Shown here: positions 26,078-42,610 of the stretch, piece by piece
How the letters are laid out: every line of letters begins with the position of its first letter
Position numbering within the stretch: the stretch's first letter is position 1
Assembly (NCBI GenBank): GCA_017563185.1
Contig: JAFXIL010000110.1
Span: 1-45,210 of the forward strand
Reading direction: 5' to 3'
Length of the DNA stretch: 45,210 nt
DNA from: Kiritimatiellia bacterium
Lineage (GTDB): Bacteria > Verrucomicrobiota > Kiritimatiellia > RFP12 > UBA1067
Made by a program: the position numbers and the translations under genes
Notes under the pieces: model-generated
Seen by the model: only the letters and a program-made list of their open reading frames with translations
The model's database searches: none
Told to the model about the DNA's origin: nothing

Positions 26078-26887
26078 TCACTGCCGCCCATTCTCTTTCT
26101 GGGGCGGATCCAGACGCTTGTTTCGCTGCGAGAAGAACCACTTCAGCACTTCGTCGTCGCGGTACGTCCTGGTCCAGACGTTGTGCCCCGCATCGGGGTA
26201 TTCGCGATAGTGCGCGTTGGAGCCAGCTGCCCAGAGCGCCGAGACCATGCTACGCGAACGGAATACCGGCACGGCCCCGTCGGCCGAACCGTGGAACACC
26301 CAGATCGGCACCTTGGCGATCTTCGCCGCCTGGGCCGTGTCGCCTCCGCCGCAGATCGGCATGGCCGCCGCAAACATCTGCGGACGACGGCAGATTATGT
26401 CCCACGTGCCATAGCCGCCCATCGATATCCCCGTCACGTACAAGCGCCGCGCATCGGTCCTCTGATCCGACAGGAGCTTATCGATGAGTGCCAGCTCAAG
26501 CGCCATCGTCTCGCTCGGCTCCGGCAGCATCGTATGGCCCATCGCGCTCCAGTCAACCTCCGCCCAGCGCTTGCCGTTGGGAACCTGTCCCGCGACGAGG
26601 CGATATCCCTTCTCATTTCTGTCTAGCCAATTGAGAAGCTCCCCCACGCCGTGCCTTAGCTGCGCGACGTTGTTCGTGCCGCGCTCGCCTGCCCCGTGCA
26701 GGAAAATCACGAGCGGCACCTTCGAACCGTCATCCGGAAGTTTCTCCGCCCAGCGGTAGCGGAACACCGTGCCGTCTGCACCGGCGAACGTCTTGGCCTC
26801 AGTTCTCTCGGCAATATCGCGTGGCGCGGCGAAAGCCGCTAGAGCCATTGTGGCGATTGCCACCGCCATCAGATGTGTTTTATTCAT
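26078..26887 (-). CDS. Secreted alpha/beta-hydrolase (CE1/PHB-depolymerase-like esterase)
   Basis: A 269-residue exported serine hydrolase: signal peptide 1-21 (ALAAFAA), the oxyanion-loop region LVIFLHGAGERG, nucleophile Ser155 in GISMGGYG, Asp203 in HGSADGAVP, and His235 in DAGHNVW. This is the arrangement of feruloyl- or acetyl-xylan-esterase-like (CE1) and prolyl-oligopeptidase-type esterases; the substrate is probably an ester on plant or host glycans (inference). The start at 26887 begins the signal peptide and lies 6 nt after a TATAAT box with TGG before it, with no ribosome site. The mRNA is therefore probably leaderless. Confidence 0.85.
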   Translation of the reverse strand: MNKTHLMAVAIATMALAAFAAPRDIAERTEAKTFAGADGTVFRYRWAEKLPDDGSKVPLVIFLHGAGERGTNNVAQLRHGVGELLNWLDRNEKGYRLVAGQVPNGKRWAEVDWSAMGHTMLPEPSETMALELALIDKLLSDQRTDARRLYVTGISMGGYGTWDIICRRPQMFAAAMPICGGGDTAQAAKIAKVPIWVFHGSADGAVPVFRSRSMVSALWAAGSNAHYREYPDAGHNVWTRTYRDDEVLKWFFSQRNKRLDPPQKENGRQ

Positions 26888-26893
26888 GACGCT

Positions 26894-26902
26894 ATTATAC
26901 CA
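26894..26902 (-). promoter_or_regulatory. Extended -10 promoter with leaderless start
   Basis: The minus strand reads TGG-TATAAT-AGCGTC-ATG. Initiation about 7 nt after the -10 box would fall on the start codon. The same geometry occurs at 42439-42444 and 43499-43504. Confidence 0.55.
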
Positions 26903-28714: not shown

Positions 28715-28831
28715 CTACATAAAAATCGACTGCAGGTCAACATGGATGTCGGCGTTGAGCCGGAACTTCTTCGGGACGAGGTCGATTGCGCCTTCGTACA
28801 TCTGCCCGGGTTTAAGAACAGTTCTATTCAT
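28715..28831 (-). pseudogene. Short ORF coupled to the MFS gene, likely 5' stub
   Basis: A 38-codon frame starting MNRTVLKPGQMYEGAIDL overlaps the MFS stop by 4 bp (ATGA) and has a strong GGAGG site. This is the architecture of a genuine downstream operon gene, but it ends after 38 codons and no other frame continues it. The family is not recognised. Probably the surviving start of a deleted last gene of the mannoside operon; a real small protein is possible. Confidence 0.45.
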
Positions 28832-30045
28832 TTTTCCTCCATCGCATTCTCATACATGGATACTGAAAGCACGGCCTGGTACACAAGGCAGGCGAGCAGC
28901 ACCCACACTAGGCCCGTACTTCCCGCGCACTTCTGGGCGAAGCCGAGGACGGGCGGCACCACCGCCCCGCCCGCAATCGCCATCACCATCAGCGACGTGA
29001 TCTCGTTCGCCTTTTCGGGCAACTTGTCGAGCGCGATCCCCATGCACATCACGAAGGTGTTCGCCGAGGCGACCGACGCCACGAACACACAGCAGAGGAA
29101 GGCGACCGGCCCTGAACAGATGAAAAAGGCCACGACGGCAAGAATGCACAGCCCCATGCTCCAGGGGAAGCACTTCGCGGGAGAAAATCGAGCGAAGAGG
29201 GCCGCTCCGGCGGCCGTCGCGAGCGTCTTGCCCACGAAATAGACCGTCGGCCCTGTCCCGGCCATGTTCACGTCGACTTTGTACACGGTCTTGAGGAACT
29301 CCGGAATCGCCACCGAGAAGCCCACGTCCAGCCCCACCGCGAAGAATATGCCTACGGTCAACGCGAGGATCAGCGGATTGCGCAAGAGCGCAAAGCAGCT
29401 GCCGAACGTTGTCCGCGGGACGGCAAGCCCGTCCGACGTCTCCCACTCGTCTGGAATCCGCGAAAGCATCAGCCACGCGGCGGTTGCAGCCGCCACGACG
29501 CCGTAGATCGGAAACACGAGCCGCCAATTCCCCATCGCGCTCGCCGCAACATAGATGAACACTGGCGTAAGCGCCGCGCAGACTGCCTTGACGAACTGCC
29601 CGAGAGCGATGCGGCTTGCAAGGAGCGCCGGCGGCACGACGTTGCCCATGAGCGCCGGAAGCGCAGCCTGCAGAATGGTGTTGCCGATGCCTATCAGCGC
29701 GAACGCCGCAAAATACGGCCATGGACGCAACGCGCCCCCCGCCAGCGGCAGGAACATCGCGGCCACTGTCACAGCAAGCGACACCAGCACCGTGTTCTTC
29801 CGTCCGATCCTCCCCGAGAGCACCCCAGCCGGCAGCGAAACCAGGAAGAACCACACGAATATCATAGACGGCAGGAAACCAGCAGCCACTTCGTCGAGCG
29901 AACACTCGCTCTTCACCTGGTTCACCACAGTTCCCACAATGTCGGCGAACCCCATCACGAAGAACCCCGCCATGATCGGCAGAAGTAAAAGTTTCGAAGT
30001 TCTGGAGCTTTGACGTTCCAAGGTTTGAGAGTTTGAAGGTTTCAT
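28828..30045 (-). CDS. MFS sugar transporter (FucP-like)
   Basis: A 405-residue inner-membrane protein with about 12 hydrophobic helices. The pattern MAGFFVMGFADIVGTV, with charged residues in helix 1 and SGRIGRKN in the first cytoplasmic loop, fits the FucP/NanT-type sugar:proton symporters. The first 20 residues before helix 1 are Ser/Thr/Arg-rich and are encoded by a degenerate 8-nt tandem repeat (29988-30044), so they are probably not part of the ancestral protein. The start overlaps the isomerase gene stop by 4 bp, and the context suggests mannose or a mannoside as substrate (inference). Confidence 0.87.
   Translation of the reverse strand: MKPSNSQTLERQSSRTSKLLLLPIMAGFFVMGFADIVGTVVNQVKSECSLDEVAAGFLPSMIFVWFFLVSLPAGVLSGRIGRKNTVLVSLAVTVAAMFLPLAGGALRPWPYFAAFALIGIGNTILQAALPALMGNVVPPALLASRIALGQFVKAVCAALTPVFIYVAASAMGNWRLVFPIYGVVAAATAAWLMLSRIPDEWETSDGLAVPRTTFGSCFALLRNPLILALTVGIFFAVGLDVGFSVAIPEFLKTVYKVDVNMAGTGPTVYFVGKTLATAAGAALFARFSPAKCFPWSMGLCILAVVAFFICSGPVAFLCCVFVASVASANTFVMCMGIALDKLPEKANEITSLMVMAIAGGAVVPPVLGFAQKCAGSTGLVWVLLACLVYQAVLSVSMYENAMEEK
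29988..30044 (-). repeat. 8-nt tandem repeat forming a protein N-terminus
   Basis: On the minus strand about seven units of the type GAAACCTT, CAAACTCT, CAAACCTT ... GAAACTTT. This is the same design as 13821-13860, and here it is translated as the MFS N-terminus. Confidence 0.7.
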
Positions 30046-31805
30046 GTGCGAACGTATGCCTTTATTGTTGCGTGTATTTTTTCTGAAGCGGGACCTGATG
30101 GACGGATCGTGTAGCGCCCCACTGACGCAGGCACGATGAACGTCTCGGCGTAGTGAACGATGAACGGTGCAAACGCGCCCGTGGGACTCTCCACGGTCGC
30201 CTCTTCACCTTCCACGAGATTAAGCACGTTCACGCCGCCGCACGTATCGTGCGCAACGGGTTCCGTGAACCAGTGACGGCGCGTCTCGATGAACTCGCGC
30301 TCGTGCAGTCCCGTACGCTCCTCCTTCACGCCCGGACGCTCCGAAATTGTCTCGACGCGTCCGACGAGGTTTTTCCGCACCCACTCTGTGTCGCGGTCGA
30401 ACTGGATGTTGGCGAGCGCATGTTTCACATGGATCGGACGCGGCCGGCCGTCGAGGCCCACCCGTCCCCAGTCCCACATCTTGAACGTGAAGATATAGGG
30501 CGTCGCGGAAATCTCCAGCACCATGCAGTTCGCGCCGGAGCAGTGGATCGTCCCGCCGGGAATGAGGAAATGGTCGTGCTTCTTCGCAGGGAAGGCGTTG
30601 ACGTACCTGAGCGCGTCAAAGGCACCCGTCTTCTCGCTCGCACGGAGCGCGTCGGCGAACTCCTCGCGCGTGACGCCGGTCTTCTTGCCGAGATAGACGA
30701 CTGGCGACGCGGACGCGTCGGCGTCGAGCAGGTAGTAGCTCTCGTCCTGCGTATAGTGCATCCCGAAGGCGTCTTGGATGTACTCGGTGAGCGGATGGCA
30801 CTGGAGCGACAGGTTACCGCCGCGCATCGTGTCGAGCATGTCGAAGCGGATCGGGAACTCCGCGCCGAAGCGGGCGTGGACCTTCTCGCCGAGGAGTTCG
30901 TGCGGATGGCGAAAGACGAGGTTGATCGCCGGCGTCTCGAGAACAATTCCGCCCACGTCCATGAGAAGCGAGTTCTCCTCCGGCACGCAGTCGAAGCTCC
31001 AGGCGTAGTTCTTCTTCGACGGGCCGAGGTCGAACTTCTCCTTCATCCACTGTCCACCCCACACGCCGGGATCGAAGTAGGGCATCACGCGAAACGGACG
31101 CGACGCGGCGATTTCGAGTCCGCGTCGAAACGCCGCCCCCGTCATCATCTTCGGTTCTGCGCCGTTCGTGTCGAGGATGTAGTCCATCCTGTCGTAGCGC
31201 GAGCGCTTGTGTCGGTCAAGCGCGCGCCAATCGGCGAAGAAGCCGCGCTTGTAGAGACGCAGAACATCCTCGCCCGCGTTGTCATCGAGCCAGTTGGCGA
31301 GTCGTCCCGAACGGAAGCGCTGCTGAATCTCCCACCGCGCCATGTCGGCGTACACGTAGATGTCGCATTCGGGACAGCACACCGCCGCCGCCACGCCATA
31401 AACGAGCACGATACCCCGCGCCGCCGCGATCTTCGCCTTGACAGTCTCAACCTTCGCCGGGTCGAAATAGTCTTCCACCCTTTTGTGCGACATCACGGCG
31501 AACACGCGGTCGTCGCCCTGGTCCGCCGCAAGCATCGCACGTACCTCGTCATGCGTCTTGTTCGCCTCGCGCGTCTCGATCACCGCGTCCGGACGAAGCG
31601 CCCACTTCAGTGCATCCAGCACCTCGTCCTCCCACACGCCGTGGTAAAGATCAACGCAAATAACGCAACGCGGTAGGGCGCGATCACCGAGCGCGCCGCA
31701 CCTCGCCTGCAATTCCTTGCCGATTGCCTCCCATCCGGCAACGGCGCGGCATTCGCCATCCGTCGGAACTTTTATCGTGGGAAACTTGTCGTATGACGAT
31801 TCCAT
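30042..31805 (-). CDS. Mannose-6-phosphate isomerase-like (class I, ManA-type) protein with N-terminal extension
   Basis: A 587-residue cytoplasmic protein. The C-terminal 370 residues are a class I phosphomannose isomerase-type cupin: YFDPGVWGGQWM, LQCHPLTEY (Gln and His zinc ligands), DESYYLLD (Glu), and LIPGGTIHCSG (His). Class I enzymes interconvert mannose-6-P and fructose-6-P. The N-terminal 215 residues form an alpha/beta domain (CVICVDLYHGVW) that recalls a nucleoside-kinase fold without a visible P-loop; its role is unknown. Long versions of this kind occur in Bacteroidetes and PVC bacteria. It lies between the ROK kinase (5 nt upstream) and the transporter (4-bp overlap). With the ROK enzyme it would link mannose to glycolysis. 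Confidence 0.82.
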   Translation of the reverse strand: MESSYDKFPTIKVPTDGECRAVAGWEAIGKELQARCGALGDRALPRCVICVDLYHGVWEDEVLDALKWALRPDAVIETREANKTHDEVRAMLAADQGDDRVFAVMSHKRVEDYFDPAKVETVKAKIAAARGIVLVYGVAAAVCCPECDIYVYADMARWEIQQRFRSGRLANWLDDNAGEDVLRLYKRGFFADWRALDRHKRSRYDRMDYILDTNGAEPKMMTGAAFRRGLEIAASRPFRVMPYFDPGVWGGQWMKEKFDLGPSKKNYAWSFDCVPEENSLLMDVGGIVLETPAINLVFRHPHELLGEKVHARFGAEFPIRFDMLDTMRGGNLSLQCHPLTEYIQDAFGMHYTQDESYYLLDADASASPVVYLGKKTGVTREEFADALRASEKTGAFDALRYVNAFPAKKHDHFLIPGGTIHCSGANCMVLEISATPYIFTFKMWDWGRVGLDGRPRPIHVKHALANIQFDRDTEWVRKNLVGRVETISERPGVKEERTGLHEREFIETRRHWFTEPVAHDTCGGVNVLNLVEGEEATVESPTGAFAPFIVHYAETFIVPASVGRYTIRPSGPASEKIHATIKAYVRT

Positions 31806-31810
31806 CTGGC

Positions 31811-32698
31811 CTACATCTCCGTAAACAGCGCGTGAAGGCCGAGTACGACGGATGCTTCAGGATTCTCGGCCACGACGAAACGAACCTTGCCCCACGGCGT
31901 CCAGGAGTGCGCCCACACATACTCCTGAGCCGCATCGAGAAGCGGCGCGAAATGCGAGGCGCCACCGGACCAGATGACCGTCTCGGCATCGTAAAGATGC
32001 ACAAGCGCAAGCGCACCTGCACCAAGCGCGGTGGAAACCATGGCGAAGAGCCGCTTCGCCTTTTCATCGCCTTTCGCATAGTCTTCCGCGAATCGTCGGT
32101 AGTCGTAATCCACGTCTCCGGCCATTTCCTTGAGCGCCCACGTGCCCACATACGCCTCAAGACACCCCTCGCCGCCGCAGTTGCACTTCCGCCCGCCATC
32201 AAACTGGATCGGGAAGTGTCCGCCGAGAAGCCCGGCCGTACCATGCGCACCACGTTCCAAATGCCCCCGGCACACGGCGGACGTTCCCACGCCCGTGCCG
32301 AGAATCATCATGACGGCATTCTGCTCGCCCTTGGCACAGCCAAAGTTGAGTTCGCCGTAAAGCGCCGCGCGCGCATCGTTGATCACGCGGCATGGAAGCG
32401 ACAGCTTTTCCCGCGCCCACGCAAAGATATCGACGTTCTCCACGCCGGCGTGCTTGTCGTTACAGCTCAGAACCCGCCCCCTCTCCTCGTCGATGATGCC
32501 AGGGAGCGCAATGCCGATTCCGTCCCAGCCGCCTGGATGCCGGGCGCGCATAGCCGAGATGCGTCGTTGAAGTTCCGCCAGCGTATCGGTGAAGCCTTCC
32601 GGCGACACCGTGAACATCTCGCTCTCGATCACTGTTCCGTCTTCCACCGTGGCCAGCTTCACCCGGCTGCCACCCATGTCCGCGCTGATGGTTTTCAC
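31811..32698 (-). CDS. ROK-family sugar kinase
   Basis: A 295-residue ROK protein: ATP-binding phosphate loop ADMGGSRVK at the N-terminus, the catalytic-type NDARAALYGE (Asp base), ILGTGVGTS, and the zinc motif CNCGGEGCLE that marks ROK kinases and regulators. No DNA-binding domain, so it is a kinase, probably for mannose or another hexose. I prefer the GTG at 32698, which overlaps the GH92 stop (GTGA) and follows GGGG; an ATG at 32713 is the alternative and adds five residues inside the GH92 gene. Confidence 0.88.
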   Translation of the reverse strand: MKTISADMGGSRVKLATVEDGTVIESEMFTVSPEGFTDTLAELQRRISAMRARHPGGWDGIGIALPGIIDEERGRVLSCNDKHAGVENVDIFAWAREKLSLPCRVINDARAALYGELNFGCAKGEQNAVMMILGTGVGTSAVCRGHLERGAHGTAGLLGGHFPIQFDGGRKCNCGGEGCLEAYVGTWALKEMAGDVDYDYRRFAEDYAKGDEKAKRLFAMVSTALGAGALALVHLYDAETVIWSGGASHFAPLLDAAQEYVWAHSWTPWGKVRFVVAENPEASVVLGLHALFTEM

Positions 32699-35600
32699 TT
32701 CGCAATCCCCCACTGCTTGTTGGGCTCGGACCCCATCCAGAGTTCCAGCGTGCCGCCCTTCAGCACTTCGCGGGCGTCGAGGAGGAAGGAGTTCTGCGGC
32801 TTGCCGTTGAAGAGAGCCCTCTGTATGTACTTGTTGGCGCGGGAGGCATTGTGCGCCTTGATGGTGAATTTGTCGCCGCGACCGAAGCGTCCCCCAAGAT
32901 CGATCGTCGCCTCTTCGAAAAGCGGGCTTGCGATTTCATAGACGGGTTCCGCGCGGCAGCCGCCGTCTGTCTGGAAGAGGCCGAGCGACGCCATCACAAA
33001 CCATGCGCTCATCTGTCCCTGGTCCTCGTCGCCGAGCCACGCCGTTGAATCGCCAAAGCCGTAGAAGCGCTCCATGATCGACCGTGCCCACTTCTGCGTC
33101 TCCCACGGCTCTCCCGCCCAGCTGAAGAGGAACGCGAAGTGCATCGACTGCTGGTTGCCCTGCACCACGGGGAACTTCGCGTAGTGCTCGCCCGGAGCGT
33201 TGTAGCGGAACGGATAGCTCTTCTCAAAGCCCCACTTAAGCCGTTCGAGGAAGCGCTCGCGTCCGACGATCTCCACGAGCGCCGGGACGTCCTGTGGCAC
33301 GAAGAACGTCAGCTGCCAGGCGTTGCCCTCTACATATCCCTTCACCGAGAATCCGTCCGCGATGGAAGTCAGGGTTTTGTCCCATTCGCCCTTCGAGTCC
33401 CTGCGATGGCAGTATCCGCTTTCGGGATTGACGGCGTTCTTCCACCAGGTACCGCGGTCGGAGAAGGTCTTGTACGCAGCCTCGTCGCCAATCGCCTTTG
33501 CGAACTGCCCCACCGTCCAGTCATCGTAGGAATACTCCATCGAGTTCGAGAAGGTGCCCTTGTCGCTTGGCACATAGTGATGCTTCATGTACGCGGCGAG
33601 GTCGCGGTTTCCGGCATAGCCGCGCCCCACCTTCTGTCCTGGTGTGGTCTGCATCTTAACGAACGCGGACAGCAGCTTCTTCGGATCGTACACGCGAATC
33701 CCCATCTGCCAGGCGCTGACCATCTGCGGAATCTCGTGTTCCGCCACCATCACCGGCATGTAGCGCATTCCCGCCGGACCCTTCCCGAGCCATCCGCCGG
33801 CCTCATAGAGCGCCATCTGCGACTTCACCCAGCGCGCGCTCCATTCCGGCCCCACGAGGTTCCACGTCTGGTTCAGATTCCAGAACGTGTTCCAGAACGC
33901 GTCGCACCCCATCGCGCGCGCGTCGGGATCGTTCAGCTTCTGGATTTTGCCGAACGGGTCGCTCCAGCGTCCATCCACATCGTTGAACGTGTTGCGGCAG
34001 AACGAACGGTAGAGGTTCGTGTAGAAGCGCTTCTTCTCAAGACGGTCCACCGTGGCGATCTTCACGCGCCCCAGCAGGTCGTTCCACGTCGCCTCGTTGG
34101 CCGCGCGCACCTTCTCGAAGCTCCAGCCGAAAGGCTCCTCGACCTCGCGCTTCAAGTTGTTCGCCGCGCCCGCGATGTCAACGAAGGAAATGCCCGAGCG
34201 CAGCTGCACGACGGTCGCGCCGTCAGCAGGCTTGAACTCCACGTAGCTTCCGAAGGACTTCGGGTTCTGCGCAGCGTGCGCGCTGCCGGTCCAGAGGGCA
34301 TCGCCCTCCCATCCGCCGAACTTCGCGATGTCGCGGTCGAACTCGATCACGAAGTGGACGGTATAGAACTGGTCGGCGTCGCGGCTCCACACGCGCGGCG
34401 TCTCCTGCTTCGAGAAGCCTTCGATCCGGCGCGGACCCGTCTGGCGCATTTCGCAGTCCAAAATGTTGTATGTATACTCGGTGGGCGTAAACAGATCAAT
34501 CATCACACGCGGCGTCTTGCCAGCCGGATACGTGTAGCGCTGGAATCCGCAGCGGTCGGTGGCGGTGAGTTCGGCGAAGATGTCGTAGTCCGTTAGTTTC
34601 ACTGCGTAGTATCCCGCCTTGCACACTTCGCCCGGCTTGTCGATGTACGAGCGGTAGCCGTCGGAATGGCCTTTGATCTCGGAGCTGTCGCCCATCTTGA
34701 TCTTGAGCGCTCCTGTCGTAGGCATCGTGCCGAGTCCCGCCATGGTCCACTCGTGAATGTGGCTGAAGCAACCGACGCTCTCGATGGTGGGGTCGTACCC
34801 GCCCTGCCATAATCCCCTGCCAGGCGTGCCTTCATTGTCAGGCGCGAGCTTCACCATGCTGAACGGCATCCACGGGCCTGGCACGAGCATCCAGCGCGAG
34901 TGCGCCGTGCCCATGCGGGTATCCACATAGCCCGCCACGCCAGCGTCGCGCTGCGGCGTGCGCACTACAGTTCCTTCCCGCACACACTCCCCATCAACAA
35001 ACACACGGTATTTACCTTGGGCCGCCGCGTCCATCGGCGCCTCGAACGAATACGCCCCTGCCTCAACGCGCTGCTCCAATGCGACCTTGCCGTCAATCTC
35101 CACGCGCACTACGGGCGCGCCATCCAGATGCTCCACGTCTACGAGAAGCGGCAGCTTCCCCGTACCAGGAATCAGATAGTCGCCCGCCTTCACGCTTCGC
35201 ACGTACGCGCCCTTGTGCGCAAGGCGCACCACTGCATCGTTCGGGCCTTCGAGGCGCACGTCGTCGAAGATCGCCCAGCTGCCTTCGATGGACGTGATCT
35301 TGATCTCATTCCCGCCCTCGACGATTTCGCTGTCCGCAAGGTCGAACTTCGCCGTGAACGGTTTTGCCGTAGAGAAGTCGCCCTTCATGATGGAGGCGTC
35401 TCCCCCGCCGGCGGGCAGCACAATCTTCCGCGCATTGCCGTTCACCGACACCTTCAGGAGAGGCCGTTCGTTCGCCTTTTTCTGGACGTCAGCGAAGTCG
35501 ATGTAGAGCGTCCATGCGCCGCCCGTGCCCTTCTTCGTGATGTCGAAGAGGATGTTCGCCTGCTGCGTGCGGCGCCCGGCGATGCGGCTAGACCCCGCCC

Positions 35601-35835
35601 ACTTGTCGTTGATTCCGGGAAGAACATACGGGAAGTCCTTCTTGGCGTTTGATCTTCCTACGAGGAAGTAGTTGTTTTCCCATCCGAAGTCGTGCTGCAG
35701 GAAATCATTGTATCCACTCGGCGCAAGCGCGAACTCGTTGCCTGTGCCGTCCTTCTGGCCGATCTGCCACACGACGTGCGCATTTGCCGCAATGATGGCC
35801 GCCGCCACCGCAACCATCAACAAACTACGTTTCAT
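32695..35835 (-). CDS. Secreted GH92 alpha-mannosidase with N-terminal beta-sandwich domain
   Basis: A 1046-residue exported protein: signal peptide 1-19, a galactose-binding/rhamnogalacturonan-lyase-like beta-sandwich region (about 20-290), then GH92 from about 300 (AGYVDTRMGTA). The key motifs are EGNAWQ (catalytic-acid Glu, about 835) and DEDQGQMSAW (base residues, about 933). GH92 enzymes remove mannose from N-glycans and yeast mannan in a calcium-dependent way. The common VPHD after EGNxWQ reads VPQD here, which may shift specificity. It starts 13 nt after the small secreted ORF. It is the central enzyme of the mannoside operon. Confidence 0.93.
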   Translation of the reverse strand: MKRSLLMVAVAAAIIAANAHVVWQIGQKDGTGNEFALAPSGYNDFLQHDFGWENNYFLVGRSNAKKDFPYVLPGINDKWAGSSRIAGRRTQQANILFDITKKGTGGAWTLYIDFADVQKKANERPLLKVSVNGNARKIVLPAGGGDASIMKGDFSTAKPFTAKFDLADSEIVEGGNEIKITSIEGSWAIFDDVRLEGPNDAVVRLAHKGAYVRSVKAGDYLIPGTGKLPLLVDVEHLDGAPVVRVEIDGKVALEQRVEAGAYSFEAPMDAAAQGKYRVFVDGECVREGTVVRTPQRDAGVAGYVDTRMGTAHSRWMLVPGPWMPFSMVKLAPDNEGTPGRGLWQGGYDPTIESVGCFSHIHEWTMAGLGTMPTTGALKIKMGDSSEIKGHSDGYRSYIDKPGEVCKAGYYAVKLTDYDIFAELTATDRCGFQRYTYPAGKTPRVMIDLFTPTEYTYNILDCEMRQTGPRRIEGFSKQETPRVWSRDADQFYTVHFVIEFDRDIAKFGGWEGDALWTGSAHAAQNPKSFGSYVEFKPADGATVVQLRSGISFVDIAGAANNLKREVEEPFGWSFEKVRAANEATWNDLLGRVKIATVDRLEKKRFYTNLYRSFCRNTFNDVDGRWSDPFGKIQKLNDPDARAMGCDAFWNTFWNLNQTWNLVGPEWSARWVKSQMALYEAGGWLGKGPAGMRYMPVMVAEHEIPQMVSAWQMGIRVYDPKKLLSAFVKMQTTPGQKVGRGYAGNRDLAAYMKHHYVPSDKGTFSNSMEYSYDDWTVGQFAKAIGDEAAYKTFSDRGTWWKNAVNPESGYCHRRDSKGEWDKTLTSIADGFSVKGYVEGNAWQLTFFVPQDVPALVEIVGRERFLERLKWGFEKSYPFRYNAPGEHYAKFPVVQGNQQSMHFAFLFSWAGEPWETQKWARSIMERFYGFGDSTAWLGDEDQGQMSAWFVMASLGLFQTDGGCRAEPVYEIASPLFEEATIDLGGRFGRGDKFTIKAHNASRANKYIQRALFNGKPQNSFLLDAREVLKGGTLELWMGSEPNKQWGIAK

Positions 35836-35848
35836 ATTATTTTTTCTT

Positions 35849-36037
35849 TCAGCTAATAAGTCCTGCCAAGCTTATCTTGGCGTACCACCAATCGTGTCTG
35901 ACTCTCGCGCCCCTCAGCTCGTCGTCGGCCGGCGTCTCGAACACGACGGGCCGCGGCATGTGCGCGGCGGACGCGGCAAGCGCGGTCGTTGCGGCGGCCA
36001 TCGCCGCAATCACCAGTATCTTGTTCATCCGTGCCAT
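35849..36037 (-). CDS. Small secreted ORF, probable truncated gene
   Basis: A 62-residue frame with a good signal peptide (ILVIAAMAAATTALAASA) and an AAAGGAAA ribosome site, followed by only about 37 residues (PRPVVFETPADDELRGARV and RHDWWYAKISL). It stops 13 nt before the GH92 gene. Promoter box 36069-36074 lies directly upstream. It looks like the beginning of a lost secreted protein, though a small exported peptide cannot be ruled out. Confidence 0.5.
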   Translation of the reverse strand: MARMNKILVIAAMAAATTALAASAAHMPRPVVFETPADDELRGARVRHDWWYAKISLAGLIS

Positions 36038-36068
36038 TTCATTTTCCTTTTTTTCTGTTGCGACGCAC

Positions 36069-36077
36069 ATTATACCA
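36069..36077 (-). promoter_or_regulatory. Extended -10 promoter inside the mannoside operon
   Basis: The minus strand reads GAATGTGG then TATAAT, right after the C26/LamG gene stop, so the GH92 part of the operon may have its own start of transcription. Confidence 0.5.
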
Positions 36078-36105: not shown

Positions 36106-39100
36106 TCAGCGCACGATCATGAGCGTGCCAGGAGTGTAGCCCAGCTGCAAACCAGTCGCATCGGCGCGCAGGCGGTATTGGGAGAGAACTTCGCCATTGA
36201 CGGAAAGACTGAACTTGGTCGTTGCGTCGGGCGGAGTGGCATTCCCCCACTTGACGAGATACGGGTCGTCGGAACCGATAATCGCCCTCGGCGAACGCGC
36301 GCCCAATTCCACGACGATGCGCGCATTTTCCGCGAAGGAAACGTAGTCGGTCCTTGAGGAGAACTTCGACTGCGGCACCCACGCGACGTCAAGTTCCGAA
36401 AGGTCGAGCGTGGCACCGTCGAGGAGGCGTACCGTGTGGATCTTCGACGTTCCGTTCGCGAAGTCGCCGATCCGAAGCCTCTTCGATATCGAAATGACAC
36501 CAGTACCGTCGTCCACCGAGCCGTTCACGTTGCGCGAGATCAGCGTTCCCAGCGAAAGCGGACAATAGACGTACATCGCGTGTTCGAAGTTCTCGAAGGT
36601 CGCCGCCGATGCGTCCACGCTTCCATCCACCCCGCTCTTGCCGATACTGAACACGCCTTCCTTTCCAAGGCGCACCGTCCCCTCTCCAACGGTGGCGTTC
36701 ACCATGAAAAACCTCCCGCCGACGGGCGTGAACACGTCGAGCACATGCCCGCCCAGGTCGAGCGTCGCAGGCGCGTATCCAGAATTGATTATGCCGTACT
36801 TGCCGTGCAAAACAAACATGGAATCCGCGCTCAGGCGCACGTTCGCCATTTGGGCGTATGTGTCTTCCACCGAATATCCGTTCGCGAGGATGCCGCCGGC
36901 GAACTCGAAGGCGTATCCCGTGAGCGGATGCTGCCCGCATACGTCCAGCACGGCGCCGGAGTCGATCTTGACGTTCGCGGAGACGTTCGTCACCCCGAGC
37001 GGCGTGACGCTCTGCTCGATGCGGTACGTGCCGGCGGCGACTTCCGTGCCGCCGGTGTGCGAATGGGCCACGCAGTCGGCCCAGATGCCATCGCCGTCCT
37101 TGACCACCTTCAAGCCGCCAGTGAAACGGATGCCGTGGTTTCGGACCGCGTCTTCCCCGGGCACGTCGATGTGCAACACGCCACCGCCCACCGAATCGGT
37201 GACGGTGGCGTAGCCGGACGTCTCCAGCGCGCTGCCGTGCGAGCTGGACGGGGCGACCTTGTCGGTATCGTAGAGACGCACTTCCAGAATGTCCAGTTCT
37301 CCGTCTTCACCGCTGTTGTCGGCACACAGCAAAACCGCGCCCTGATTGAAGAAGTCGGTCGAATCGACAGTGCCTTCGTGCGCGAGCTCTCCGTTCAGAT
37401 ACACCTTGTTTCCTGAGGCGTTGGCAGTAATCAGAATTTCCTGAAACAAAGTGGTGGCCAGGCATGCGAGGGTTCCGTAAGGCTTAAAATAGCCGCTGGA
37501 GCAGCCTATCGTGCTGTCGCTACTCTTGATGAAGAGCGCGGCATCACCTTGGTTCGTGAGGTCGCGGGAAAGAAAACTTCTGTTTCCAGAGGCGCTACGC
37601 CTGATGAACTGAATAGACATAGCCCACTCGTGGTTCTTCACTGAGTCCGGCACGGGCAGTCGCACATGGTATTTTGCGGGAATACGGAGCATATATTCGC
37701 CCGAGAAGCGCTCTGTCGCGACGACACTCATGCCGCCCAGGTCTGCTATCGCGTCCGAACCCTTGCCGTTGCCGTAGCATGGGATTCCTGCCTCGCCGCC
37801 CGGCAGGGCGGAGGCGAGCACGGCTGCGCTCTTCGGGTTTGCGGGATCGAAGTCGTTGAAATCCCATTTCGCGACAGGCTGCGCCGCACCCGCCTTGATC
37901 CCAGAGACGGCAAGCGAGTGCCCGGCGAGGTCGAGCGTGCCGCCGGCAGGAATTTCAAGCACGCCGTCTGCGCGACGGTCGACGTCCGCAGCGAGCGTTG
38001 TGGAGGCGCCGAGGACGGTCGGCTGGGGACTTGTGAAACCGTCGTAGATGCTCACCTCGGCTATGTAGAGTAGATTATCTTCGTTGTCGTTGTCTGCACT
38101 GAGAAGAATGCCACCATCGTTGAAAAACGTCGATGAATCCTGTATCGAGGAGAGCGCCACGTCGCCGTCGAGATACACGGTGTTGCCGGATGCGTCGGCA
38201 TTGATCACGAGTTCGTGCCAGCGCCAGCCCTTTGCACTGCGTCCACCCTTTGGGTAGAAGATTCCGGTGCTGCAGCCAAGGGCGGGATAGGCGACGCCCT
38301 GAATAAAGAGCGAACCGTCGCCGTTGTTGGCGAGCTTGTTCGAGAAGAAGCAGGCTTTCGCCGACGTGCCGTCTGCTGGACGGTAGTACTTCAAGCGCAT
38401 CGACCAGGCGTGGTTCTTCAGCGAATCGGGCGTCGTCAGCTTCACGTGGTAGTATTGGGGGATGGCGAGCGCGTATTCGCCGGGAGCTAGACCGGGGCAT
38501 TCGGTAGAGTCGGCGCCCACCACGTACATGCCGCCGAGCGTTCCGTCCGCAGTGGGCGCGGTGCCAGCGCCCTTGTAGTAGCACGGAACTCCAGCCGGCC
38601 CGCCCGGCAGGGCGGAGGCGAGCACGGCGGCGTTCTTCGGGTTCGCGGGATCGTAGTTCTGGAAGTTCCACTTTGCCACGAGCGAGCCGGCTCTCGTCGC
38701 AGCCAGCACCGACGGCAGTTCGCCGGTGACGAGCCAGCGGAAGAGCGCGGCGCACTTCGGGTCGCCTGCGGCAAGCGACTCGGGGTGGAACTGGACGGCA
38801 CGGATGTTCAGCGACTTGTTCTCGATCGCCTCGATCACGCCGTCCGGCGCGGTCGCCGCCACGGTGAATCCCGGCGCGAGCTTCTTCACCGCCTGATGGT
38901 GGGTGGAATTGACGAGATGGCACGAACTCTGGAAGATCGGCTTCAGGTAGCCGTCGTTCGAGACCTGCACGAAATGGGTCGAGGCGTGCGCGGCGCCGCG
39001 TTCGCTTGCAAGGTCCTGATAGAGCGTGCCGCCGTGATAGACGTTGATCATCTGCTGCCCCCGGCAGATTCCGAACACGGGCTTCTTCAGAGCCGTCGCC

Positions 39101-39474
39101 ACATCGAGAAGCGCCCATTCAAAGGCGTCGCGCTTCAGGTTGGATGCTTTGCAGTACGACTTCCGCGTCTCTCCGTAGCGAGTGGGGTCGACGTCCTCGC
39201 CACCGCACAGGACGAGCAGATCGACGCCGCTCACCAAGTTCGTGAGCGCGGCGGCATCGTCCGTCCAGCCCAAGATGCGAACGGTCGCCCCCTGGTTGGA
39301 GAAGGCCGTCTGCACGTTCTCGGGTGCGGACGGCGTACTGCCTGAACACACGTCGGCTAGTCCGGCCACGAATTCGGCGGCTTGTGATGGCGAGGGCGCC
39401 GTCACTACGCAGATTGCGATCGCAGCAAGCGCGGCGAGTTTGCTACACGCTGATTTGCTTTTAACTGTTTTCAT
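36106..39474 (-). CDS. Secreted peptidase C26 (glutamine-amidotransferase-like) fused to two LamG-like domains
   Basis: About 1122 residues. A signal peptide (1-33) is followed by a class I glutamine-amidotransferase/C26 domain (about 35-262): the nucleophile Cys137 in FGICRGQQ, with His230 and Glu232 in VQFHPES, matching PuuD-type gamma-glutamyl hydrolases. Two related LamG/concanavalin-like repeats follow (about 270-480 and 520-720). The rest is an extended beta-strand-rich region as in autotransporter-associated-repeat proteins, ending TPGTLMIVR. An exported amidotransferase fold with LamG repeats is unusual; it could cleave gamma-glutamyl or amide bonds on a surface-bound substrate (inference). 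The start at 39474 begins the signal peptide with AGGAA upstream. First gene of the operon. Confidence 0.82.
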   Translation of the reverse strand: MKTVKSKSACSKLAALAAIAICVVTAPSPSQAAEFVAGLADVCSGSTPSAPENVQTAFSNQGATVRILGWTDDAAALTNLVSGVDLLVLCGGEDVDPTRYGETRKSYCKASNLKRDAFEWALLDVATALKKPVFGICRGQQMINVYHGGTLYQDLASERGAAHASTHFVQVSNDGYLKPIFQSSCHLVNSTHHQAVKKLAPGFTVAATAPDGVIEAIENKSLNIRAVQFHPESLAAGDPKCAALFRWLVTGELPSVLAATRAGSLVAKWNFQNYDPANPKNAAVLASALPGGPAGVPCYYKGAGTAPTADGTLGGMYVVGADSTECPGLAPGEYALAIPQYYHVKLTTPDSLKNHAWSMRLKYYRPADGTSAKACFFSNKLANNGDGSLFIQGVAYPALGCSTGIFYPKGGRSAKGWRWHELVINADASGNTVYLDGDVALSSIQDSSTFFNDGGILLSADNDNEDNLLYIAEVSIYDGFTSPQPTVLGASTTLAADVDRRADGVLEIPAGGTLDLAGHSLAVSGIKAGAAQPVAKWDFNDFDPANPKSAAVLASALPGGEAGIPCYGNGKGSDAIADLGGMSVVATERFSGEYMLRIPAKYHVRLPVPDSVKNHEWAMSIQFIRRSASGNRSFLSRDLTNQGDAALFIKSSDSTIGCSSGYFKPYGTLACLATTLFQEILITANASGNKVYLNGELAHEGTVDSTDFFNQGAVLLCADNSGEDGELDILEVRLYDTDKVAPSSSHGSALETSGYATVTDSVGGGVLHIDVPGEDAVRNHGIRFTGGLKVVKDGDGIWADCVAHSHTGGTEVAAGTYRIEQSVTPLGVTNVSANVKIDSGAVLDVCGQHPLTGYAFEFAGGILANGYSVEDTYAQMANVRLSADSMFVLHGKYGIINSGYAPATLDLGGHVLDVFTPVGGRFFMVNATVGEGTVRLGKEGVFSIGKSGVDGSVDASAATFENFEHAMYVYCPLSLGTLISRNVNGSVDDGTGVISISKRLRIGDFANGTSKIHTVRLLDGATLDLSELDVAWVPQSKFSSRTDYVSFAENARIVVELGARSPRAIIGSDDPYLVKWGNATPPDATTKFSLSVNGEVLSQYRLRADATGLQLGYTPGTLMIVR

Positions 39475-39528: not shown

Positions 39529-39537
39529 AGTTTACCA
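39529..39537 (-). promoter_or_regulatory. Promoter -10 box of the mannoside operon
   Basis: The minus strand reads GTTTGG then TAAACT. It lies exactly 24 nt downstream of the operator at 39559-39587, as at 42439-42444. There is no usual -35 box, fitting activator dependence. Confidence 0.6.
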
Positions 39538-39558
39538 AACCCGCCGTTTGACCTTCAA

Positions 39559-39587
39559 TTGTACAATCCTAAAATCCGATTGCACAA
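39559..39587 (-). promoter_or_regulatory. Operator O1 for the XylR-like regulator
   Basis: Two direct half-sites, TTGTACAA (39559-39566) and TTGCACAA (39580-39587), with a 21-bp repeat distance (two helix turns), typical of AraC-type dimers. The central CCTAAAAT is shared with O2 and O3. Confidence 0.7.
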
Positions 39588-39693
39588 CATCGGCTACAAC
39601 AAGGGTGCCATGTACAGCGGGAGGTGAAGTATCCCGTCATTGAAGTCCGAAATCCACGATTCCGCCGGATATACGGCATTAATAATGGAATAG

Positions 39694-39723
39694 TTGACTT
39701 GCATGACCTATTTATGGTATAAT
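39694..39723 (+). promoter_or_regulatory. Sigma-70 promoter of the DUF234-type ATPase gene
   Basis: TTGACT (39694-39699), an 18-nt spacer and TATAAT (39718-39723). This is the best consensus promoter in the window. It precedes the ATPase start by about 35 nt. Confidence 0.85.
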
Positions 39724-39758
39724 TCCGCCCGTAATAAGCACTCACAAGGAGATTGGCT

Positions 39759-41171
39759 ATGATTGGAAGAGAAAAAGAACAGCGGCGGCTTCGCGAATTA
39801 GCGGATTCGAATGAGGCCGAGTTTGTCGCAGTCTATGGGCGTCGGCGCGTGGGGAAAACCTACCTTGTCCGCGAGACTTTCGACGGGGAATTCACTTTTT
39901 GCCATTCCGGCATGGCTCGCGTCGGCATGGCAAAGCAACTCCAGGCTTTTCGCAGCTCACTCAGGGAATGGGGGGACGAACATTGTCCGAGGCTGACGAA
40001 CTGGATCGATGCGTTTGACCGCCTGAAGCTGCTCGTAAAGGGTTGTGGCCAACGCAGAAAGATCGTGTTCATCGACGAAATGCCGTGGATGGACACGCCG
40101 AAGTCCGGATTCGTCCCTGCGCTAGAACATTTCTGGAACGGATGGGCATCCGCTCGAAAGGACATGATGCTCATCGTCTGCGGCAGTGCGACCTCCTGGA
40201 TAATCGACAAGGTTCTCAAAAACAAAGGCGGCCTGCATGACCGAGTGACCGGACAGATCGCGCTTGAGCCATTCACGCTAAGGGAATGCGAGCTTTATGC
40301 GCAGTCTCGCGGGCTTGACTACACACGGCGCATGGTCACTGAATGTTACATGGCACTTGGCGGGATTCCGTACTACTGGCGGATGCTTCGGCGGGGGATG
40401 AGCCCCGCGCAGAATTTCGACGAGCTGTTCTTCTCGCCCAAGGGGCAGCTTCGTTTCGAGTTCGACGAACTCTATGCGTCACTGTTCAAAAGGAAGGAAC
40501 CGTACGTGAAGATTGTAACAACGCTGGGTACGAGGACCTACGGATTGACAAGGGACGAATTACTGGCGGCGGCGGGCCTCTCCGATGGCGGGCGGATCGG
40601 AAGGTATCTTGAGGAACTGGAAACATGCGGATTCATACGAAGATGCCGGGCCTTGGGCAAGAAGACGAAGAACTCGGTATTTCAGATCATAGACAACTAT
40701 ACTCTCTTCCACCTTCAGTTCATCGCGAACGGGAACGGAAAGAATGCTCGTGGATGGACCGACCGGCTAGAGACCGCTGATTACTATTCATGGGCGGGAT
40801 GCGCTTTCGAGCGCGTGTGCCTCCAGCACGTCCTCTCCATCAAGCATGCACTTGAGATAGGCGGCGTAAAGACAAGCGAACACTCTTGGCGCGGTATTGC
40901 GCCCGACGGGAGTCCCGCGCAAATCGACATGCTGATAGACCGCAACGACGGCATCGTCGATCTGTGCGAGATGAAATACACGAAGGACGCATACGCGCTC
41001 TCGGAGGAAGAATGGAACCGGATATCGAGGCGTCGAACGGCCCTGCGCAGCGTACTCCCTCCCTCAAAAGCCATCCATGTCGTGATGGTCACTGCCCAGC
41101 CGATGGTCAGAAACGCCTGGTCGAAAGAGGTAATGGCGTTCGTCACGGCCGACGACCTCTTCAAGGACTGA
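39759..41171 (+). CDS. ATPase with DUF234-like nuclease-type C-terminus (archaeal-type AAA family)
   Basis: A 470-residue protein. An AAA-type STAND-like ATPase (Walker A GRRRVGKT at 27-34; Walker B IVFIDEMPW) is followed by a winged-helix segment (about 250-300). The C-terminal region (about 345-470) has a PDDEXK-like pattern (IDMLID ... LCEMKYTK) as in DUF234. These ATPases are common in bacterial and archaeal genomes and their function is unknown; some cluster with mobile elements. Start: ATG 39759 with AGGAG 7 nt before it, rather than the TTG six bases earlier. Strong promoter upstream. It lies alone on the plus strand between regulator and operon and is probably unrelated to them. Confidence 0.85.
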   Translation: MIGREKEQRRLRELADSNEAEFVAVYGRRRVGKTYLVRETFDGEFTFCHSGMARVGMAKQLQAFRSSLREWGDEHCPRLTNWIDAFDRLKLLVKGCGQRRKIVFIDEMPWMDTPKSGFVPALEHFWNGWASARKDMMLIVCGSATSWIIDKVLKNKGGLHDRVTGQIALEPFTLRECELYAQSRGLDYTRRMVTECYMALGGIPYYWRMLRRGMSPAQNFDELFFSPKGQLRFEFDELYASLFKRKEPYVKIVTTLGTRTYGLTRDELLAAAGLSDGGRIGRYLEELETCGFIRRCRALGKKTKNSVFQIIDNYTLFHLQFIANGNGKNARGWTDRLETADYYSWAGCAFERVCLQHVLSIKHALEIGGVKTSEHSWRGIAPDGSPAQIDMLIDRNDGIVDLCEMKYTKDAYALSEEEWNRISRRRTALRSVLPPSKAIHVVMVTAQPMVRNAWSKEVMAFVTADDLFKD

Positions 41172-41229
41172 CTTCACGTTTTGCGAGCAAAGGGAATTGC
41201 CCGGTGGCTTGACGCGGACATCTGCGAGG

Positions 41230-42432
41230 CTACCGGCGGGCGTTGTTCTGCCCGCGCCAGCGCTCGGCGGTGAGGCCGGTATCCGCCTTGAACATGCGGC
41301 AGAAATATTGAGCGGATGCGAAGCCGGAGCGGGCGACAATATCGGCTACAGGAAGCTCCGTATTTGCCAGAAGCCGTTTCGCAGCCGACAGCCGGCTTTC
41401 AATCAGCTCCTGCTGAACCGTGCGCCCAAGTGCCTTGCGGAACCCCTCCTCGACCATCGGAAGCGATTTGCCGACGAATGCGGCAACATCTTCCGCTGTA
41501 AGCCGCTTCTCGACATTTCTTGAAATGTACACGAGCGCGTCCGAGATCCACTTCTGCGCGAATGCGTACGTTTCGGTTGACCGGCGCAGTATGACTTCGC
41601 CAGGCTTGACGCGGATGGCCGGGGGATTCTTCCGCGCCGCTTCCGAGCGCATCATCCGCGACAGTACAGCCACGGCCGCCGCGCCCACTCGGTGGCCGGA
41701 GTTGTCGATGGAGGAAATGGAGGGCGCCACGAACGAGCAAACGAGCGGATCGTTGTCCACGCCCAGTACGGCAAGATTGTCCGGCACAGCGATGTTTTCA
41801 CTTCGGCAGACGCACAGCACCTGATAGGCCCGTGTGTCGTGGCAGCAGAACACCGCTGTGCGCGGCGGCAGTCCCTTGAGCCACTGGGCGAGGCTGCGCG
41901 CGTCGACGCCGAGCGTCACGTCCTCCTTGCGCGTCACGCGGGCGTCGTACTCCGCAAGGGCGCGACGCGGGGTCTTGAACACGGAGCATGAAAAATAGTG
42001 GCTCTTCAGCAAGGCCACGAAGGCGTCGCGCCGCTCGTCTGAATAATTGTAGCCCTCGTAACCACAGTAGGCAAATGAAGTGAAGCGCCGCGCAAGAAAG
42101 TGTTCGGCGGCCTTTCGCCCGATTGCCGTCTGGTCGCCATCAACCGAACCAAACAATGGATACCGCTTGTTGCAGAACACGTCCACCACCGGAAGCCCAG
42201 AGGCCACAAGCCTTTGGGCCATCGCATCGTCCGCCACGCGTGCGATCACGCCGTCAAAACCATGAAGCGACTTGGAGCGCTTCAGAGAATCGGCGTCCAG
42301 GAATTCGAGCGTCCAGTTGTCCTCGCGCAACGCCGCATCGGCAATGCCGCAACAGAGCTCGCGCCCATAGGCGCGATCCCTTTCCACGATCACGGCGACA
42401 CGCCGTTCTCTGTCATGGCGCTTGTTTTTCAC
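41230..42432 (-). CDS. XylR-type transcriptional regulator (LacI-like sensor, AraC HTH)
   Basis: About 400 residues. The N-terminal 270 residues resemble a periplasmic-binding-type sugar sensor as in LacI/GalR proteins (RRVAVIVERDRAYGRE; VAVPDNLAVLGVDND-like region), without a LacI HTH. The C-terminal 105 residues are an AraC-family double helix-turn-helix (PVADIVARSGFASAQYFCRMFK). This is the E. coli XylR architecture, which binds direct-repeat sites as an activator. The start is GTG 42432, directly after a -10 box at 42439-42444 (6 nt between), so the mRNA is probably leaderless; the longer frame to 42561 would run through the operator. Likely an activator of the mannoside operon and of itself. 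Confidence 0.87.
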   Translation of the reverse strand: MKNKRHDRERRVAVIVERDRAYGRELCCGIADAALREDNWTLEFLDADSLKRSKSLHGFDGVIARVADDAMAQRLVASGLPVVDVFCNKRYPLFGSVDGDQTAIGRKAAEHFLARRFTSFAYCGYEGYNYSDERRDAFVALLKSHYFSCSVFKTPRRALAEYDARVTRKEDVTLGVDARSLAQWLKGLPPRTAVFCCHDTRAYQVLCVCRSENIAVPDNLAVLGVDNDPLVCSFVAPSISSIDNSGHRVGAAAVAVLSRMMRSEAARKNPPAIRVKPGEVILRRSTETYAFAQKWISDALVYISRNVEKRLTAEDVAAFVGKSLPMVEEGFRKALGRTVQQELIESRLSAAKRLLANTELPVADIVARSGFASAQYFCRMFKADTGLTAERWRGQNNARR

Positions 42433-42438
42433 GTCAAG

Positions 42439-42447
42439 ATTATACCA
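42439..42447 (-). promoter_or_regulatory. Promoter -10 box of the regulator gene
   Basis: The minus strand reads GTTTGG-TATAAT-CTTGAC-GTG. It is 24 nt from the operator at 42469-42497, the same geometry as the mannoside operon promoter. Confidence 0.65.
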
Positions 42448-42468
42448 AACCTGCCGCCGAACCTCCAC

Positions 42469-42497
42469 TTGCACAATCCTAAAATTCAGTTGCACGG
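42469..42497 (-). promoter_or_regulatory. Operator O2 (autoregulation)
   Basis: Half-sites TTGCACAA (42469-42476) and TTGCACGG (42490-42497), distance 21 bp, with the same CCTAAAAT centre as O1. Confidence 0.7.
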
Positions 42498-42581
42498 AAG
42501 CGGAGAGTTGTGGACATAGCGGCCCGCACGCCTGCAGATCATCGTGCGTGCATTTTTCCAAAGCACTCGCCCGCTTCGCAC

Positions 42582-42610
42582 TTGCACAATCCTAAAATCC
42601 GATTGGCTTG
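42582..42610 (-). promoter_or_regulatory. Operator-like site O3, partly degenerate
   Basis: One perfect half-site TTGCACAA (42582-42589) with the CCTAAAATCCGATTG centre; the second half-site (42603-42610) is degraded as it enters the esterase gene. A decayed -10 (AAAAAT, 42552-42557) lies at the same 24-nt spacing. It looks like an old duplicated promoter. Confidence 0.5.

Follow-up and report, generated by a model that had tools for sequence, protein, structure and literature searches.

Two promoters in a 45,210-bp stretch of Kiritimatiellia DNA (the window) have paired half-sites directly upstream of an extended −10. With a probability of roughly 80% we read these sites as AraC-type tandem operators of the adjacent XylR/AraC-type regulator, which would activate both a mannoside operon and its own gene. 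The self-controlling mannoside circuit of the original prediction appears real; the sequence, position and conservation of its sites are observed directly, and we infer binding, activation, inducer and the assignment of boxes to helices. The design is the ordinary, well-known one of AraC/XylR-type regulators, and what is new is its occurrence in an unstudied lineage. The finding is sound and useful: it yields an exact, testable operator prediction for regulators of a type whose numbers are expanded in uncultured gut Kiritimatiellae (as many as 33 matches per genome). A limited literature search returned no described regulon from this lineage. The window is one contig (61) of a 3.2-Mb assembly, genome scans were pattern searches, and feature coordinates are collected in Table 1.

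Table 1. Predicted regulatory elements and genes of the mannoside locus
Feature	Position	Strand	Sequence or evidence
GH92 α-mannosidase	32695..35835	-	Pfam 5.4e-123; 6f8z α-1,2-mannosidase, E 4.5e-77
ROK-family sugar kinase	31811..32713	-
Type I phosphomannose isomerase-like protein, ManA-like core at residues 236-464	30042..31805	-	phmmer to 1qwr, E 7.2e-10
MFS sugar transporter	28828..30045	-	Pfam 2.4e-23
First gene, class-I glutamine amidotransferase-like (Peptidase_C26) with LamG-like domain	36106..39474	-	Pfam 1.5e-46
Possible internal promoter without operator, between C26 and GH92	36069..36077	-	TGGTATAAT
Extended −10, operon promoter	39529..39537	-	TGGTAAACT
Operator 1 (operon promoter)	39559..39587	-	TTGTGCAA-N13-TTGTACAA, centre TCGGATTTTAGGA
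AAA ATPase (ATPase_2), between regulator and operator 1	39753..41171	+	Pfam
Regulator, XylR-type, LacI/PBP-like sugar-binding domain and AraC HTH, 400 aa, GTG start	41230..42432	-	Pfam Peripla_BP_3 1.4e-28, HTH_18 1.1e-15
GTG start codon of regulator	42430..42432	-	exactly 6 nt after −10
Extended −10, regulator promoter	42439..42447	-	TGGTATAAT
Operator 2 (regulator promoter)	42469..42497	-	CCGTGCAA-N13-TTGTGCAA, centre CTGAATTTTAGGA
Site 3, degenerate copy	42552..42610	-	distal half-site degraded, proximal perfect; overlaps stop codon of GDSL gene

Predicted operator copies in the window and in related genomes

The 24-base core TTGNACAATCCTAAAATNNNRTTG, whose copies read TTGYACAATCCTAAAATNNNRTTG, occurs exactly at positions 39559-39582, 42469-42492 and 42582-42605, with no further copy in the 3.2-Mb genome at up to 2 mismatches and none in 100 dinucleotide shuffles. 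Three two-part sites with half-sites 21 bp apart had been proposed: the spacing holds and the core is exact at all three, and because the second half-site (TTGCACAA in site 1, TTGCACGG with 6/8 matches in site 2) is degenerate in site 3 (TTGGCTTG), the full two-part arrangement is confined to sites 1 and 2. On the minus strand, in the direction of the genes, operator 1 is TTGTGCAA-TCGGATTTTAGGA-TTGTACAA-N24-TAAACT, operator 2 is CCGTGCAA-CTGAATTTTAGGA-TTGTGCAA-N24-TATAAT and site 3 is CAAGCCAA-TCGGATTTTAGGA-TTGTGCAA-N24-AAAAAT. The distance to the −10 is exactly 24 nt at sites 1 and 2, as originally stated, the 24 ending in TGG, and it is 23 or 24 nt in relatives. In site 3, too, TTTGG closes a 24-nt stretch before AAAAAT, a feature absent from the original account that marks this site as a degraded third copy of the whole module; its counterpart was not found in relatives.

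We reject the hypothesis that the GTTTGG preceding the −10 belongs to the operator: TTTGGTATAAT occurs 55 times in the genome (reversed control, 0) and TGGTATAAT 143 times (reversed control, 3), which identifies the element as the organism's usual extended −10, and relatives carry CTCTGG, CTCTGA or CTTTGA instead. The conserved parts of the operator are GTGCAA, ATTTTAGRA and TTGTNCAA. Scanning the genome with the combined operator-promoter pattern at 24-nt spacing retrieves operators 1 and 2 only, and at 23-nt spacing the site of a paralogue on contig C160 and one two-mismatch match on C146. Random occurrence of the motif throughout the genome had been named as the outcome that would speak against a small, searchable regulon; that search found only these sites.

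Searched at up to 2 mismatches in 115 family genomes, the motif GTGCAANNNNATTTTAGRATTGTNCAA yields eight sites in four genomes, all of one genus, with none outside it and none in the control. Each site adjoins an orthologue of the regulator (88-96% identical) or precedes its neighbouring operon, in agreement with the regulon originally proposed, and an extended −10 of the form TGnTANANT lies 23 or 24 nt beyond every one of them. As can be seen from these eight modules, direct repeats 21 bp apart at a near-constant distance from the −10 stand before the regulator's own gene and its predicted target operon and nowhere else. The downstream genes vary: GH92 follows directly in G013, among the closest relatives, where (as in G011) the C26 gene is missing at the corresponding place, and in G014 the sites precede a beta-helix/CBM6 gene (C215) and an InlB-repeat gene with GH92-ROK-ManA-MFS behind it (C108). 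Operator columns of the site alignment average 1.6-1.85 bits vs about 0.5 in the flanks, and regulator-locus alignments stop at the operator edge (window 42501; L060, L061). Weighing against the operator reading, orthologues at 65% identity near GH92 in G031 and G032 have no such site in the available sequence, one of the two upstream regions being partly N. A scan for the half-site at more distant regulators found it only in the orthologue group and the paralogue group described below. A shorter motif at 2 mismatches in 59 relatives also matched in G002, G005, G016, G029, G032 and G044; we treat these matches as chance since each has two mismatches and the same-family ones (all but G044) are lost with the fuller motif.

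The regulator, its predicted action and the mannoside operon

The regulator combines a LacI/PBP-like sensor with a following AraC-type HTH (Peripla_BP_3 at 152-329 and HTH_18 at 360-437 of the 443-aa open frame), and E. coli XylR (4fe7) matches over residues 8-396 of 400 with E 1.1e-33. The PBP1_XylR N-terminal domain scores 20.3 bits, below the curated cut-off of 27, the whole-length match to XylR notwithstanding. The regulator's full-length domain order, a PBP1-like sensor and an AraC-type two-HTH domain, is that of E. coli XylR (PDB 4FE7/4FE4), which however serves xylose genes. The neighbours here are C26, GH92, ROK, ManA-like and MFS genes rather than xylose genes, so we call the protein XylR-like and not XylR.

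Two regulator monomers would sit in tandem on the 21-bp direct repeat directly upstream of the extended −10, the proximal half-site spanning about −53 to −37, and would activate transcription with class II geometry; AraC-type activators of class II have their operators placed in this way relative to the −10. AraC at araI1-I2 likewise occupies tandem half-sites 21 bp apart, the proximal one beside the −35 region, but its sensor domain is unrelated, an extended −10 replaces the −35 here, and the araI sequence differs. XylS at Pm and MtlR at PmtlE, also activators, use a pair of tandem repeats that directly precedes the promoter and adjoins the −35 (PMC5481539; PMC4514859), and differ in sensor domain and effectors, the strongest conserved unit here being ATTTTAGGATTGTGCAA. 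One operator would control the α-mannoside operon, and the other the regulator's own, probably leaderless gene, a predicted positive autoregulation whose sign we take from position only. The regulator promoter, with TATAAT, has a better −10 than the operon promoter with its TAAACT; this difference would fit basal synthesis of the regulator combined with positive feedback.

The C26-LamG, GH92, ROK kinase, ManA-like isomerase and MFS genes all run in one direction. No Pfam family matched the ManA-like protein above cut-off, and its HP, E and GTxH positions align with those of solved phosphomannose isomerases. The gene content fits mannosides, presumably by the route mannoside to mannose to mannose-6-phosphate to fructose-6-phosphate, which we take from family knowledge, and a mannose-type sugar would be the probable inducer. 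The original prediction placed operator 1 before the C26-GH92-ROK-ManA-MFS genes; it lies directly before C26, and GH92 may be separately driven from the internal TGGTATAAT. The terminator scan listed no terminator on this strand between C26 and GH92. The AAA ATPase is probably outside the circuit; in G014:C108 (L052 570-585) it is reduced to a scar, a few bases from its two ends, that brings window positions 41159 and 39754 to about 5 bp apart.

Predicted paralogue operators and alternative readings

The same genome encodes a paralogue of the regulator (G000:C160, 45% identical) with counterparts in G004, G005 and G011 (43-45% for the group). Each is followed by ATTGCAWATTRTGCAA-N20-TGnTATNNT, once per genome, and the pattern occurs nowhere else in the 115 genomes (control, 0); it was derived from these very sequences, so that only the absence of other matches counts as independent evidence. 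Common to both groups are TTGTGCAA (TTATGCAA in G000:C160), how far it lies from the −10, and the TGn extension, and this shared geometry strengthens the proposed link between the sites and the XylR-like regulator. The upstream box differs, being ATTGCAWA in the paralogues (ATTGCAAA in G000:C160) vs ATTTTAGG in the regulator group. Likewise, the second HTH is nearly the same (recognition helix 6, SGFASAQYFCRMF vs SGFSSVQYFCRAF) and the first differs (helix 3, KSLPMVEEGF vs LSHTTVGSTF). This parallel between helices and boxes suggests which reads which: HTH1, lying upstream, probably reads ATTTTAGG/ATTGCATA and HTH2 TTGTGCAA. The pair thereby offers two natural proteins and two DNAs for telling the helices apart. 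More tentatively, and at somewhat less than even odds, operator specificity in XylR-like paralogues may be modular, with TTGTGCAA, spacing and promoter kept and the HTH1 box diverging with helix 3, so that paralogues in one cell would be mutually insulated; if true, many of the uncharacterised regulators in uncultured Kiritimatiellae could be matched to their operons by reading a two-box code. In L059:2138-6130 and L064:6046-9976 the paralogue operator precedes a gene for a LamG-domain protein about 1,300 aa long, then one for a protein of about 670 aa that has no Pfam match.

The same activator model also admits another parse of the half-sites, patterned on XylS/Pm, in which TGCA would form an upstream box A and the downstream box B would be TTTTAGG in the distal and GGTC in the proximal repeat. 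XylS uses TGCA-N6-GGTA (PMC5481539), which the proximal repeat resembles (TGCAATTGAAGG in G013), but in site 3, G004 and G005 the TGCAA of the distal repeat is lost where ATTTTAGG/ATTGCATA and TTGTGCAA stay, and it is HTH1, not HTH2, that differs between the two groups; we regard this parse as possible though doubtful. It is improbable that the copies are alike merely by descent, as recent duplications of a promoter segment through recombination or gene conversion rather than sites selected for binding. Over stretches of 53-84 bp the two promoter segments do show about 80-88% similarity between copies, and in G011:C81 (L058 890-1070) the regulator promoter and first four codons are joined to the GH92 leader, the regulator gene being absent there, so such segments do move. 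Spacer and flanks nevertheless diverge across four genomes while the boxes stay, and the layout recurs in the paralogue operators around a different centre.

That G011 arrangement may be a real deletion or an artefact of the metagenome-assembled genome, whose assembly is 75% complete and elsewhere contains only 43%-identical relatives of the regulator. A site with no close regulator in its assembly could point to a different protein as its ligand, as could the near-palindromic half-site TTGNNCAA, given that TTGTGCAA itself is near-palindromic and another protein could bind it; the sites are confined to the neighbourhood of this regulator family, where two separate groups have them, and we consider a different binder very improbable. 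Nor do we think it likely that the regulator acts mainly as a repressor or looping factor with site 3 as an araO-like remote operator: site 3 lies 113 bp upstream of operator 2 and its proximal half-site is perfect, but it is degenerate and absent from relatives, and operators 1 and 2 occupy the activator position upstream of the −10, neither overlapping a start. Activation from tandem operators by the adjacent regulator is the reading that we retain.

Probable leaderless start of the regulator gene and a small reading frame

The GTG of the regulator gene coincides with the expected +1, so that its mRNA is predicted, from the −10 only, to be probably leaderless. The 6-nt distance is common to the window, G013 and G014, although the six bases themselves differ. 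In G013 and G014 most longer starts are ruled out by an in-frame TAG just upstream of the GTG; the ATG left in both, two codons upstream, would precede the expected transcription start. Start codons 5-7 nt after a −10-like hexamer are found in 11 of 41 regulators of the family vs 0.4 expected from shuffles. Genome-wide, TGGTATAAT-N6-RTG occurs 14 times (control, 0) vs 8 times at N12, with about 4.5 expected from the TGGTATAAT count. Other genes show such starts, and we reject the notion that they are special to regulators; the 14 places, probable leaderless genes, include the regulator (window 42430-42449) and a hydrolase gene starting at 26887 (window 26885-26902). A small open reading frame on the minus strand between C26 and GH92 (window 35845-36045) has a signal-peptide-like start (MARMNKILVIAAMAAATTALAASA...) and is perhaps the remnant of a gene for a secreted protein.
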